From positions 23,045 through 87,044 of the forward strand of contig VXSP01000009.1 of assembly GCA_009837885.1 (NCBI GenBank): 64,000 bases of DNA, written 5' to 3'. Positions 55,774 through 61,982 of the stretch are shown here, one piece after another (the stretch's first letter is position 1; each line of letters opens with the position of its first letter). The position numbers were made by a program, and so were the translations under genes. This DNA comes from Holophagales bacterium (lineage in GTDB: Bacteria; Acidobacteriota; Thermoanaerobaculia; Multivoradales; Multivoraceae). The notes under the pieces were generated by a model. It saw only the letters and a program-made list of their open reading frames with translations, made no database searches and was not told the origin of the DNA.

Positions 55774-56400
55774 TCAGCCCTGCAAGGCCCTCCGCACCTG
55801 CCACGCCTGCCGCGTCTCCTGCGACGAGAACCGCTGCTCGGCCCAGGGGTCGCCGTACGTGTGGTAGCCGTTCTGCTCCCAGAACCCGCGCTCGTCTGCG
55901 TTCAGGAGTTCGATGCCGGAGACCCACTTGGCGCTCTTCCAGGCGTAGAGATGGGGCACCACGAGCCGGAGCGGACCGCCGTGATCCGGCGCCAGCAGTT
56001 CGCCGCCGTGGCGGTCGGCGAGCAGCGCGTGTTCGGAGAGCAGGTCGTCGAGCGGCAGGTTCGTCGTGTAGCCGCCGTAGCAGTGGATCATCGCGTGCGT
56101 GGCTTCCGGAGACGGCGCCACCGCGCCGAGCACGTCCCGCGTCGCGAACCCGGACCACCGGTTGTCCAGGGTCGAGAACCGGGTCACGCAGTGAAAGTCG
56201 GCGGTCACCTCGCGCCGCGGCAGCGACTGCAGCGCCTGCCAGTCGAACGCGTGCTCGGCCTCGACGCGGCCGAACAGCCGCAGCTCGAACCCGGCCACCT
56301 CGACCTCGGGCGTGTCGCCGACGGACAGCACCGGCCACTTCTTCGTGACGTACTGGCCGGGGGGAACCCGGTCGTCGCCGCGTCTCGGGGAATCGTCCAT
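55774..56400 (-). CDS. Molybdopterin-dependent oxidoreductase (sulfite-oxidase/YedY-like fold)
   Basis: FHCVTRFSTLDNRWSGFATRDVL, HCYGGYTTNLPLDDLL, GGPLRLVVPHLYAWKSAKWVSGIEL. Confidence 0.87.
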   Translation of the reverse strand: MDDSPRRGDDRVPPGQYVTKKWPVLSVGDTPEVEVAGFELRLFGRVEAEHAFDWQALQSLPRREVTADFHCVTRFSTLDNRWSGFATRDVLGAVAPSPEATHAMIHCYGGYTTNLPLDDLLSEHALLADRHGGELLAPDHGGPLRLVVPHLYAWKSAKWVSGIELLNADERGFWEQNGYHTYGDPWAEQRFSSQETRQAWQVRRALQG

Positions 56401-56584
56401 GGCGCGGGGAGACTATCGACAGTCGCCGCGTCGTGCAGTGCGTCGGTTGTAAATGTGAGCGATGTGGTCAACAATTCCCGCTCGCCGCGCCGGGGCTCGT
56501 CCGAGCCGCCCGCCGGAGTCCGTTGCGAGGTGTCTTCCGCGGCTCTGGAGGAACGGGGGCGATCGTCCTGATAGGGAAACGTCG

Positions 56585-57592
56585 ATGATCACCGAATCCG
56601 CTTCCAGCGAGTACGCCGCAGCCGCCGTCGAGCTGGCCGGGCCGCCGATTCCGGAGGGGCTCGGCGACGGTGCCCGGCGGCTGCTGTCGCGGGTCGGCAA
56701 CACGCCCCTGCTCGACCTGAGCCACGTCCTCGGACCGGCCGCAAGGGAACTCGGGTCGGAGCTTCTGGCCAAGGCGGAGATGGCGAACCCGGGCGGCTCG
56801 GTCAAGGACCGGCCGGCGCGTCACATGATGCTGGCGGCCCGTGACGCCGGCCAGCTCGACGGCGGCCGCCGTGTCCTGGACGCGACCTCGGGCAACACCG
56901 GCATCGCGCTCGCGATGATCGGCGCGGCGATGGGCATCGGCGTGACGCTCTGCCTGCCGAGCAACGCCTCGATCGAGCGACGGCGCATCCTCGGCGCGTT
57001 CGGCGCCGAACTCGTGCTCACCGATCCGATGGAAGGCTCCGACGGCGCCATCCGCGAGGCGCGCCGGATGATCGAGGCGGATCCGGAGGCGTTCTGCTAC
57101 GTCGACCAGTACAGCAACACCGCCAACTGGCGGGCTCACTTCGAGACCACCGGCCCCGAGATCTGGATGCAGACGGAGGGGCGTCTGACCCACTTCGTCG
57201 CGGGTCTCGGTACCAGCGGCACCTTCTGCGGCACGGCCCGGTACCTGGCCGAACGCGCTCCCGGGGTCCGGCTCATCTCGATGCAGCCGGACGGCCCCTT
57301 CCACGGGCTGGAGGGCATGAAGCACATGCCGAGCGCCCTCGTGCCGGCGATCTACGACGATTCGATCGCCAGCGAGGAGACGGAGGTCAGCACCGAGGAC
57401 GCCTACGCCGAGATCAAGGCGCTCGCCCGCGGGAGCGGCCTGCTCGTCGGCATCTCGGCGGCCGCGAACGTGGTCGCCGGGCGGCGGATCGCCGAGCGCG
57501 CGGCCGAGGCCGGGGAGCGCGCCGTGGTGGTGACCATCCTCTGCGACGGCGCCGACAAGTACCTGTCCGAACCGTTCTGGGACGAGGACTGA
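56585..57592 (+). CDS. cysM: PLP-dependent cysteine synthase, CysM-like
   Basis: VGNTPLLDL, NPGGSVKDRPARHMM, TSGNTGIALAMIGAAMG, VAGLGTSGTFCGTARYL; next to a JAMM and a CysO-like fusion as in mycobacterial mec-cysO-cysM. Confidence 0.85.
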   Translation: MITESASSEYAAAAVELAGPPIPEGLGDGARRLLSRVGNTPLLDLSHVLGPAARELGSELLAKAEMANPGGSVKDRPARHMMLAARDAGQLDGGRRVLDATSGNTGIALAMIGAAMGIGVTLCLPSNASIERRRILGAFGAELVLTDPMEGSDGAIREARRMIEADPEAFCYVDQYSNTANWRAHFETTGPEIWMQTEGRLTHFVAGLGTSGTFCGTARYLAERAPGVRLISMQPDGPFHGLEGMKHMPSALVPAIYDDSIASEETEVSTEDAYAEIKALARGSGLLVGISAAANVVAGRRIAERAAEAGERAVVVTILCDGADKYLSEPFWDED

Positions 57593-57599
57593 ACCGCCG

Positions 57600-58058
57600 A
57601 TGATCGAACTGTCTCCAGGCGACCTGGCCCGCATCCGCGCGCACGGCGAGGCGACGTACCCGGAGGAGTGCTGCGGCATCCTGGTTGGCAGCAGCGAGAA
57701 GACGGCCGGTGAAGATCCCGCGCCTCTCGCTCGTGTCGTGCGCCTGGTCGGCGCCGAGAACGAACGCGAGGACGAGAGCCGGCACAACCGCTACCTGATC
57801 CCGCCCGAAGTCATCCTGCGGACGGAGCGGGAAGCGCGCGCGGACGGCCTCGACGTGGTCGGCTACTACCACTCGCACCCGGATCACCCGTCGCGCCCCA
57901 GCGACTTCGACCGGGACCACGCCTGGCCGGGCTACAGTTACCTGATCGTCTCGGTGCGCGAGGGCCGCGCCAGGGACGAGCGGAGCTGGCGGCTCAGCAA
58001 CGACCGTTCCCGCTTCGACGAGGAACCGATCCGCACCCCTGAACCGCCCGCGACCTGA
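57600..58058 (+). CDS. JAMM/MPN+ metalloprotease (Mec-like)
   Basis: EECCGILVGS and HSHPDHPSRPSDFD (HxH-x(n)-D JAMM motif). Confidence 0.88.
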   Translation: MIELSPGDLARIRAHGEATYPEECCGILVGSSEKTAGEDPAPLARVVRLVGAENEREDESRHNRYLIPPEVILRTEREARADGLDVVGYYHSHPDHPSRPSDFDRDHAWPGYSYLIVSVREGRARDERSWRLSNDRSRFDEEPIRTPEPPAT

Positions 58059-58095
58059 ACACGCAAAAGACCGAAGAGTCCCACGGAGACCGACG

Positions 58096-59547
58096 ATGAC
58101 CGTACTCATACAGATTCCCACGCCCCTGCGGGGCTTCGCCGACGAGCAGGCCGAGGTGGCGGTGGCCGCCGCCACGGTCGGCGAGGCGATGGAGCAGCTC
58201 GTGACCCGCTACGAGGGCCTGCGGCCGCACCTGTTCGGCGACGACGGCAAGCTGCGCACCTTCGTCAACCTGTTCCTGAACGACGAGGACGTGCGCTACC
58301 TGGAGCGCGAGGCGACGCCGATCAACGGCGACGCGACGCTGGCCATCATCCCGTCGATCGCCGGCGGCACGGTGGCGGAGCCGCCGGCTCCAGCGACCAC
58401 CGAGGAGCTGAGCCCGGAGGAAATCCTCCGCTACAGCCGCCACCTCATCATGCCCGAGGTCGGCTCCGAAGGGCAGTTGAAGCTCAAGGCCGCCAAGGTG
58501 CTGATGATCGGCACCGGCGGGCTCGGCTCGCCGCTCGGCATGTACCTCGCCGCGGCCGGCGTCGGCCGCCTCGGCCTGGTCGACTTCGACGTCGTCGACG
58601 AATCGAACCTGCACCGCCAGTTGCTCTACAGCAACGCGGACGTCGGCCGGCCCAAGCTCGACGCCGCGGTCGAGCGCCTGCACGAGGTGAACCCGCACAT
58701 CGAACTCACGCCGCACCCGGTGCTGCTCGACTCGAGCAACGCGCTCGAGATCTTCGAGGACTACGACGTGATCGTCGACGGCACGGACAACTTCCCGACC
58801 CGCTACCTGGTCAACGACGCATGCGTCCTGCTCGGCAAGCCGAACGTCTACGGGTCGATCTTCCGCTTCGAGGGCCAGGTGTCCGTGTTCTGGGGCGCCA
58901 AGGGTCCCTGCTACCGCTGCCTGTTCGCCGAGCCGCCGCCGCCGGGACTCGTCCCCTCATGCGCCGAGGGCGGCGTCCTCGGCGTGCTGCCCGGCATCAT
59001 CGGCAGCCTGCAGGCGAACGAGGTGATCAAGCTGATCATCGGCCAGGGCGATCCGCTGATCGGCCGACTGGTGCTCTTCGACGCGCTGCGCATGAGCTTC
59101 CGCGAGCTGAAGCTGCGCAAGAACCCCGATTGCCCTATCTGCTCCGAGAATCCGATTCAGACGGAGCTGATCGACTACGAGCAGTTCTGCGGCGTCCCCG
59201 CCGTCGCCGAGGAGCCGGCGCTCGACGACATGATCGACGTGACTCCGACCCAGGTCCAGTCCTGGATGAACGACGGCCGCGACTTCAGCATTCTCGACGT
59301 CCGGGGCCCGCAGGAGTACGCGATCTGCCGGATCGACGGATCGACCCTGATTCCGGTTGCCGAACTCGAGGGCCGGCTAGCCGAGCTCGACCCTTCGAAG
59401 CTCTGGGTCGTCCACTGCCACCACGGCCCGCGGTCGACGCGAGCGACGAACATCCTCCGCGACAACGGCTTCCCGCAGGCTTACAACCTGGCCGGCGGGA
59501 TCGATGCGTGGGCGGTGGAAGTGGATCCGTCGTTGCCGCGGTACTGA
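58096..59547 (+). CDS. Ubiquitin-like (CysO/MoaD/ThiS) - E1 (MoeB/ThiF) - rhodanese triple fusion
   Basis: UBL ending ..LAIIPSIAGG (Gly90-Gly91); GTGGLGSPLGMYLAAAGVGRLGLVDFDVVDESNLHRQ; CYRC..CPIC zinc cysteines; rhodanese loop CHHGPRS. Confidence 0.92.
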   Translation: MTVLIQIPTPLRGFADEQAEVAVAAATVGEAMEQLVTRYEGLRPHLFGDDGKLRTFVNLFLNDEDVRYLEREATPINGDATLAIIPSIAGGTVAEPPAPATTEELSPEEILRYSRHLIMPEVGSEGQLKLKAAKVLMIGTGGLGSPLGMYLAAAGVGRLGLVDFDVVDESNLHRQLLYSNADVGRPKLDAAVERLHEVNPHIELTPHPVLLDSSNALEIFEDYDVIVDGTDNFPTRYLVNDACVLLGKPNVYGSIFRFEGQVSVFWGAKGPCYRCLFAEPPPPGLVPSCAEGGVLGVLPGIIGSLQANEVIKLIIGQGDPLIGRLVLFDALRMSFRELKLRKNPDCPICSENPIQTELIDYEQFCGVPAVAEEPALDDMIDVTPTQVQSWMNDGRDFSILDVRGPQEYAICRIDGSTLIPVAELEGRLAELDPSKLWVVHCHHGPRSTRATNILRDNGFPQAYNLAGGIDAWAVEVDPSLPRY

Positions 59548-59556
59548 GGGAGCGGC

Positions 59557-60531
59557 CTAGGTTTCGGGGGCCAGTGGTCCGAACGAGACGTTCCGGCCGT
59601 CGACCTCTACCCTCGCGCCGGGCAGGGCCTCGACAGCCCGTCGCGGCAGCAGGGCGAGCCCGATGGCGGCGTCGTCGCGCGGCGATGGGGAGACGCTGGT
59701 GACCGTACCGGCGGTTCGACCGTCGAACTCGATCTCCGCTCCGGCGGACGGGCTGTGCCCGGGCTCGAAGACGAGCCGGCACATGCGGCGGGCCGGCTGG
59801 CCGCGGTAGTGGATGCGGGCGACGATCTCCTGGCCCAGGTAGCAGCCCTTCTCGTAGTCGACAGCGTCTTCGATGCCTGTCTCCTGGGGCAGGTTGGCGT
59901 CGTCGTAGTCGACGCCCCAGAGCGGATGGCCGTGTTCGATGCGGAGGGCCTCGGTCGCTTCGCGGCCGGCTCGCTGCAGACCTGCTTCGGCCAGGTCGTC
60001 GGCCATGAGCGGCGCGATCGCGGAGGACTGCCACAGCGAGAAGGCCGGCACGCCGCCGTCGCCCTCGCGCACCAGGCGGGCTTGGTAGTCGAGGAATCCG
60101 ACCTGGGTGTGGTTCCATGGCTCGGTCAGGTCGCGGGCCGCTGAGGCGCCGAGATCGGCCAGCACCTCGGCGCTCCTCGGCCCGGCGATCCTCACCGAAG
60201 CCATGTCGCCAAGCGGCAGGATCTCTACCTGGTCGGTGACGATGTACTTCTCAAGGTGCTCGATGATCGTCCTGCCGCGCCCCTTGGGGATCTCCAGCCA
60301 CAGGCGATCTTCGAGCGCCAGCACGGCGGCGCTGGCGAGGATGCGGCCGCGGACGTCGGTGATGAAGCCGAAGCGGCCTGCGCCGGGTTCGAGACCTTCG
60401 ATAGCCGCGGTCACCATGCCGCCGAAGAACCGTTCGCGGTCGGGGCCCATGAGTTCCAGCCGGGAGGCCGGCGGCGGTTCGCACAGGGCGGCTTCGGTGG
60501 TGAGCAGTTCGACGTCGCGTTCGAAGCTCAT
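59557..60531 (-). CDS. ygfZ: YgfZ/GcvT-like folate-binding protein
   Basis: DYEKGCYLGQEIVARIHYRGQPARRM signature. Confidence 0.9.
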   Translation of the reverse strand: MSFERDVELLTTEAALCEPPPASRLELMGPDRERFFGGMVTAAIEGLEPGAGRFGFITDVRGRILASAAVLALEDRLWLEIPKGRGRTIIEHLEKYIVTDQVEILPLGDMASVRIAGPRSAEVLADLGASAARDLTEPWNHTQVGFLDYQARLVREGDGGVPAFSLWQSSAIAPLMADDLAEAGLQRAGREATEALRIEHGHPLWGVDYDDANLPQETGIEDAVDYEKGCYLGQEIVARIHYRGQPARRMCRLVFEPGHSPSAGAEIEFDGRTAGTVTSVSPSPRDDAAIGLALLPRRAVEALPGARVEVDGRNVSFGPLAPET

Positions 60532-61292: not shown

Positions 61293-61982
61293 TTGATCGT
61301 ACGGGTGCTGAGCTTCGCCACCGCGCTGGACGCTGTAGGCAGCGCCGAGACGGAACATGACCTCCCGGACGGCAGCACGGTCGCTGACCTCGTCGAGCGC
61401 CTGACGGCGGCGTATCCGGATCTGGAAGCCCTCTGGCCGCGTCTGGCGGTAGCCATCGACGGGGAAGTCGCCGGGGACCGGACGGCACCCCTTCACGATG
61501 GCGCCGAAGTGGCACTTCTCCCGCCGGTATCCGGCGGCTCCTGCGGCGCCGGAGCCCGCCGGCTGCGCGACGGCGCCGTCGACGCGGACACGGTGTCGGC
61601 GGTACGCGCCGGCGTAGAGGACGCGGGCAAGGGAGCGGTGGTCGTATTCGTCGGCAACGTCCGCAACTCCTTCGGCGGACGGCCGGTCGAGCGGATCACC
61701 TACTCCGCGTACCCGGCGATGGCGGAGAGGCGCCTCGAACGGATCGTTAGCGAGCTTGGAGCCGCTGAACCCGGAACCCGCGTTGAGATCGTCCACGGCC
61801 TGGGTACCCTCGAAGTAGGCGATGCGAGCGTAGTCATCGCGACTGCTTCCGCCCACCGGCGTCAGGCTTACGAGACGAACCGGCTCGCCCTGGAGCGTCT
61901 CAAGGCAGAAGTCCCCATCTGGAAAAGGGAGCACTACGCGGACGGCAGGTCCGCATGGCGGGAAGAGGAACCGCTGGAGTGA
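61293..61982 (+). CDS. MoaD-MoaE fusion (molybdopterin synthase small + large subunit)
   Basis: MoaD-like N-terminus ending EVALLPPVSGG (Gly81-Gly82), then MoaE: GAVVVFVGNVRN..ASAHRRQAYETNRLALERLKAEVPIWKREHYADG. Confidence 0.9.
   Translation: MIVRVLSFATALDAVGSAETEHDLPDGSTVADLVERLTAAYPDLEALWPRLAVAIDGEVAGDRTAPLHDGAEVALLPPVSGGSCGAGARRLRDGAVDADTVSAVRAGVEDAGKGAVVVFVGNVRNSFGGRPVERITYSAYPAMAERRLERIVSELGAAEPGTRVEIVHGLGTLEVGDASVVIATASAHRRQAYETNRLALERLKAEVPIWKREHYADGRSAWREEEPLE

Follow-up and report, generated by a model that had tools for sequence, protein, structure and literature searches.

A conserved fusion of a ubiquitin-like domain, an E1 enzyme and a rhodanese as a probable pro-protein in bacterial CysO-type cysteine operons

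Introduction

Like many of its relatives, ubiquitin is synthesised as a precursor and trimmed by a protease to a terminal Gly-Gly. The 64,000-nucleotide stretch of Holophagales bacterium DNA analysed here (the window) raises the question of whether a bacterial carrier might be handled likewise: a ubiquitin-like (UBL) domain runs in one frame into an E1 enzyme and a rhodanese, its Gly-Gly is internal, and genes for a CysM-type enzyme and a JAMM protease lie directly upstream.

The closest known system is the CysO/MoeZ/CysM/Mec cycle of Mycobacterium tuberculosis, in which the job of Mec is to hydrolyse the CysO-cysteine adduct (PMC3227635) and which shares all four activities with the window (UBL, E1-rhodanese, JAMM, CysM). 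In M. tuberculosis, however, CysO is a separate protein that ends at its Gly-Gly, whereas the window's UBL is fused to its E1, and moeZR (Rv3206c) is encoded apart from cysO-cysM (Rv1335-Rv1336), whereas the window's genes form a single cluster.

Results

The fusion gene (58096-59547, plus strand, as are all window features below) encodes 483 residues in a single frame, with a Shine-Dalgarno-like GGAG at its start. Its CysO/MoaD-like UBL domain (residues 1-91, 58096..58368; ThiS/MoaD-like Pfam PF02597 at residues 5-91, E 1.4e-9) ends in SIAGG, and its closest solved structure by sequence is M. tuberculosis CysO (3dwg chain C, E 6.9e-12). Gly90-Gly91 of this motif sit immediately before the linker TVAEPPAPATTEEL, the start of which (58369..58404) is predicted to be flexible from AlphaFold2 pLDDT and from its variability in relatives. 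There follow a MoeB/ThiF-type E1 adenylation domain (58405..59145; PF00899 at residues 113-347, E 1.3e-82), with MoeB and Uba4 as closest solved structures by sequence (E. coli MoeB 1jw9, E 2.2e-64), and a rhodanese domain (59242..59514; PF00581 at residues 383-473, E 3.1e-17) whose active-site loop CHHGPRS carries Cys441. Domains and invariant residues are those of a MoeZ-type E1-rhodanese with intact catalytic residues: GxGGxG, the four cysteines of a likely zinc site and Cys289 are invariant in the E1 domain, as are C441, G444, R446 and S447 in the rhodanese (49 sequences). Against the PRK07878 MoeZ model the fusion matches over its full length at 500 bits, under the 647-bit cut-off. The AlphaFold2 model (pTM 0.67, no inter-domain error available) gives residues 90-101 a pLDDT below 50, and the fusion junction is thus modelled as disordered.

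Upstream, a CysM-type PLP cysteine synthase gene (56585..57592; PF00291, E 7.2e-62) is separated by 7 bp from the JAMM gene, which in turn lies 37 bp ahead of the fusion. The start of the former, ATG 56585, is the best start as picked from the sequence, the longest open reading frame beginning at 56462; its product scores 320 bits against TIGR01138 cysM, under the 394-bit cut-off, and is matched by M. tuberculosis CysM chains at E 4e-51. The JAMM/MPN+ metalloprotease (57600..58058, 152 residues; Prok-JAB PF14464, E 2.9e-27) contains HSHPDHPSRPSDFD and has 2kcq as its closest solved structure (E 3.6e-29). Its catalytic HSHP...SxxD motif is intact, as it is in 136/136 homologues; with this motif and its position beside the fusion, we regard it as Mec-like by context. 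No promoter or terminator signals were found in the region 56300-59700. The coordinates and domain anatomy given in a preliminary description of this DNA (the reading frame, SIAGG, the linker, the CHHGPRS loop and both intergenic gaps) all hold.

That description had implied that the architecture is rare, and this did not survive a scan of GTDB species genomes. Among the best 80 loci, fetched with patterns that did not include the Gly-Gly, 71 carried the fusion and 9 were split, mostly with CysM and JAMM genes directly upstream, and the fusion is therefore not a chance event. Identities ranged from 92-98% in Holophagales/Thermoanaerobaculia MAGs down to about 60% in other Acidobacteriota, Ignavibacteria, Gemmatimonadota, Elusimicrobia, Omnitrophota and Eisenbacteria, the operon itself recurring in Acidobacteriota, Ignavibacteria/Bacteroidota, Gemmatimonadota, Elusimicrobia and Omnitrophota. 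The idea of a rare fusion was rejected, given its presence across phyla in the GTDB scan and in the Acidobacteriota and Ignavibacteria-phylum collections described below.

The architecture had also been reported in part, in some archaea and Acidobacteria. A moaD-moeBR (MoaD-MoeB-rhodanese) fusion with the same three domains as the window's was described in archaea, with transfer from Acidobacteria inferred (PMC11237513); the accessible part of that paper treats these clusters under molybdopterin biosynthesis and contains no JAMM, CysM, cysteine link or processing test. The gene content of the operon (ThiS/MoaD, E1-rhodanese, JAB, cysteine synthase) also matches class 4c in Iyer et al. 2006 (PMC1779556), a class that includes an acidobacterium (Susi). 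Its authors proposed that JAB proteins process Ub-like proteins at the C-terminal glycine; neither the UBL-E1-rhodanese fusion nor residues after the Gly-Gly are mentioned in the passages and table consulted. Ubl-E1 fusions were further noted in Thaumarchaeota (PMC2948915), where the UBL precedes the E1 as in the window, but in these Ubl-E1-TBP proteins no rhodanese is named and the C-terminal domain is TBP-like. What is new here is the comparative evidence for processing.

The logic of that comparison is that if the UBL is freed after its Gly-Gly, the Gly-Gly should be kept whatever follows, while the sequence beyond it should be free to vary. Further UBLs were collected by profile search of 396 Acidobacteriota genomes and of 346 from the phylum to which the Ignavibacteria locus belongs, and the set was de-replicated at about 90% identity to 158 sequences; these are MAG data from two overlapping collections, some flanks span only 1.5 kb, and related sequences are non-independent. 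Of the 158 UBLs, 85 are fused, 10 stop exactly at the Gly-Gly and the other 63 are unfused but continue for 1-26 residues past it; every one of them (158/158) has the Gly-Gly. In the fusions, which all (85/85) retain it at the domain junction, neither glycine varies (entropy 0), against 2.0 bits for the residue that follows and 3.0-3.75 bits for later positions. Extra residues after the Gly-Gly occur in 63/73 unfused UBLs and vary in sequence (TA, VS, RL, ARK, SAGNAN and APSHSPRGGSI, for example). The linker measures 10-46 residues up to the RYSRH motif of the E1 in all fusions except L170 and L171, where the order is UBL-rhodanese-E1 rather than UBL-E1-rhodanese, the JAMM adjoins and the Gly-Gly junction is the same. 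A small residue (A/S/T/V) follows the Gly-Gly in 80/85 fusions versus 33/63 tails (Fisher p 2.8e-9), but across independent tree pairs the sign test gave a median p of 0.125, and we treat this preference as a lead only.

We also mapped the fused or split state onto a tree of 133 E1-rhodanese sequences, which requires 16 changes, at least 9 of them forced by well-supported branches. L022, at 75% identity the nearest relative without the fusion, has a UBL ending SIAGG-VGQ, its TGA stop overlapping the ATG of the E1 gene (ATGA), and the E1 start there, MTVAEA, is homologous to GG-TVAEPP of the window. In that overlap (L022:4268-4285) the codons GGA GGA of the UBL Gly-Gly resemble the Shine-Dalgarno sequence of the E1 gene. 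From these sequences, fused, tailed and exact-GG UBLs appear to be three interchangeable starting forms, and since fused and tailed forms are the majority, the Gly-Gly is invariant, the residues after it vary and the state has changed repeatedly, the UBL seems usually to be born as a pro-protein. The preliminary description had gone further, suggesting that the carrier is covalently pre-loaded on its own activating enzyme; we found no support for such a functional device, as the state flips readily, the linker is unconstrained, the model shows a disordered junction, and no covalent tie would persist once the fusion is cut.

The Gly-Gly pattern is most simply explained by a cut after Gly91, and we place the predicted JAMM cleavage site at Gly90-Gly91/Thr92 (58363..58371) given the invariance of the Gly-Gly, the variability beyond it and the precedent of JAMMs that cleave behind a Gly. 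HvJAMM1 splits SAMP1-MoaE behind the C-terminal Gly (PMC4443979), DRJAMM cuts MoaD-MoaE (PMC8832034), and M. tuberculosis MoaX is active only once cut between Gly82 and Ser83 (PMC4326299). In all three, a buried Gly-Gly is freed by a cut after its last Gly, as predicted here, but their partner is MoaE, a molybdopterin synthase subunit, whereas in the window it is the activating E1. The earlier claim that the JAMM must release the UBL after Gly91 is supported to this extent: given the Gly-Gly in 85/85 fusions and the tails of 63/73 unfused UBLs, a pro-protein to be cut after Gly91 is most likely what the gene encodes, and the neighbouring JAMM is, by analogy with these Ubl fusions, the natural candidate for the protease.

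Genomic context bears on the choice of protease. Where 1.4 kb or more of upstream sequence was available, the JAMM gene adjoins 72/80 fused and 56/62 tailed UBLs, six tailed ones being without it, and whole-genome searches placed a JAMM elsewhere in the genome for most fused loci that have no adjacent one. A JAMM with catalytic residues is encoded in this genome and in almost every other one examined, with two exceptions: no clear JAMM was found in G015 (0.9 Mb, probably partial) or in G012/G170 (91% complete), and both keep the Gly-Gly of the fusion intact. In the Omnitrophota locus L054, the fusion directly follows CysM with no JAMM between them and lies downstream of genes for a SufS-like cysteine desulfurase and a SufU-like protein; no JAMM was found in the 0.9 Mb of its genome that were searched. 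The JAMM also adjoins five exact-GG UBLs, and so must have a second job. A rule that a tail goes with an adjacent JAMM and an exact Gly-Gly with none, hinted at by Acidobacteriota loci, is broken by Bacteroidota exact-GG UBLs that have the JAMM.

Discussion

Our reading is that UBL-E1-rhodanese represents a real, conserved and fairly widespread architecture which, judged from comparative sequence data, would be a pro-protein form of a CysO-type carrier. Within one bacterial operon type, the carrier may end exactly at its Gly-Gly, bear spare residues or run on into its E1, and the Gly-Gly is never lost despite the switches. The family offers a direct and inexpensive way to test whether a bacterial JAMM processes precursors, and it carries a warning for annotation, such fusions probably being pro-proteins and not single working enzymes.

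We consider it likely that the locus is a CysO-type cysteine operon (cysM - JAMM - UBL-E1-rhodanese) whose carrier starts out as a pro-protein, with the JAMM acting in both its maturation and product release. The JAMM would hydrolyse Gly91-Thr92, giving free UBL-GG and E1-rhodanese; the E1 would then adenylate the UBL C-terminus, the rhodanese persulfide would convert it to the UBL thiocarboxylate, and CysM would build the presumed product, cysteine, on the carrier from this thiocarboxylate. The resulting UBL-Gly-Gly-Cys amide would probably be hydrolysed by the JAMM, as by Mec, letting cysteine out and regenerating the carrier. One protease could perform maturation and release, since both break the same Gly-X bond. 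As to whether this is the sole cysteine route, the genome has a CysE-like match (132 bits, under the cut-off) and a second CysK/CBS-like enzyme, and cysteine may therefore have other routes.

Another protease could cut the UBL, in which case the JAMM would serve only in cysteine release as a Mec-like enzyme. Its retention beside the five exact-GG UBLs, which need no trimming, fits such a division of labour, as does M. tuberculosis, where CysO ends at its Gly-Gly (3dwg chain C aligned to the last residue) yet Mec is present; PMC4326299, moreover, leaves the mycobacterial protease that acts on MoaX unnamed. We nonetheless think a separate protease unlikely, as the JAMM is the sole non-RadC JAMM in the genome, archaeal and Deinococcus JAMMs cut linear Ubl fusions (PMC4443979, PMC8832034), and maturation and cysteine release concern the same kind of Gly-X bond. 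Nor does the genome favour a UBL that is never released and instead serves its E1 as a docking or regulatory domain, with other UBLs as the carriers. Other UBLs do exist in the genome, and a distinct, non-ThiS UBL fused to some ThiF proteins, found alongside a free-standing ThiS, is suspected of a different role (PMC1779556); however, the window's genome yielded no further CysO-like UBL, the Gly-Gly is absolutely conserved in 85 fusions next to an unconstrained linker, and many relatives encode the orthologous UBL separately at the equivalent operon position, making a docking domain very improbable.

The preliminary description had also noted, correctly, that GTG 58372..58374 is in frame and without a clear Shine-Dalgarno sequence, and had offered it as an alternative start of the E1. 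If the E1-rhodanese were mostly translated from this codon, the enzyme would be free without cleavage. The GTG, at Val93, is kept in 13/13 same-genus copies, and the E1 of the split relative L022 starts at the homologous place, but L022 has GGAGGAG ahead of that start, a linker start codon with a Shine-Dalgarno-like motif occurs in only 4/84 fusions and an ATG in the linker in only 17, and an internal start would still leave the UBL C-terminus unfreed. The codon is thus probably unused, and we hold such translation to be extremely unlikely.

Both the E1 and the JAMM may act on further carriers in this genome. The fused E1 is the single ThiF-family protein in the genome and hence probably serves every UBL, ThiS and MoaD included. 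JAMM and RadC are the only JAB proteins, and the genome gave four UBL matches: the E1 fusion, a MoaD-MoaE fusion, a UBL-phosphotransferase and a ThiS ending exactly at Gly-Gly. The MoaD-MoaE fusion (61293..61982, its longest open reading frame starting at TTG; PF02597 E 2.5e-14, PF02391 E 2e-30) has a buried Gly-Gly (LLPPVSGG/SCGAG) with a GG-Ser junction like that of MoaX, kept in five relatives (L008, L009, L010, L015, L019), and is likely a second JAMM substrate. The UBL-phosphotransferase (L005:67-1815, minus strand, contig C16 of G000) joins a ThiS/MoaD-like domain ending LLAPVAGG, with a ThiS match of 21 bits just under the Pfam cut-off, to an APH-type phosphotransferase and DUF6285, and its gene lies 22 bp after one for aldehyde ferredoxin oxidoreductase. 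Up to three buried-GG carriers may therefore depend on one JAMM.

A more speculative extension, which we regard as distinctly unlikely, is that the uncut fusion keeps the cell's sole E1 inactive or self-occupied and that the JAMM cut is a switch. With the JAMM divided between the pro-protein and UBL-Gly-Gly-Cys, cysteine flux would then govern the supply of E1 to cysteine, molybdenum cofactor and thiamine synthesis, and the Cys-first tails of a related acidobacterial family (UBL-GG-C), as exact copies of the covalent intermediate, would be built-in competitors or sensors.

Unfused UBLs of that Acidobacteriota family (f21) carry cysteine-rich tails between the Gly-Gly and the stop codon (L125, L128-L136, L138-L141, L143, L145-L147, L149, L150, L152 and L155), such as CCPLAACCCR, SACCC, TNCCL, CCCCCCL and TDRKNSLCCSCCPLL. 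Over 21 de-replicated f21 loci, several of which probably share ancestry so that not all are independent, cysteine makes up 37/148 tail residues in the frame used, while translating the other two frames gives 6 and 4; in fused linkers it makes up 4/1275. Cysteine sensing or mimicry of the UBL-Cys adduct are possible roles, and no shared terminator of a cysteine-responsive attenuator was evident by eye in the gaps inspected. Four UBL genes (L125, L132, L164 and L226) end in SIAGGC or AIAGGC, the Gly-Gly-Cys end of the covalent intermediate of the CysO pathway.
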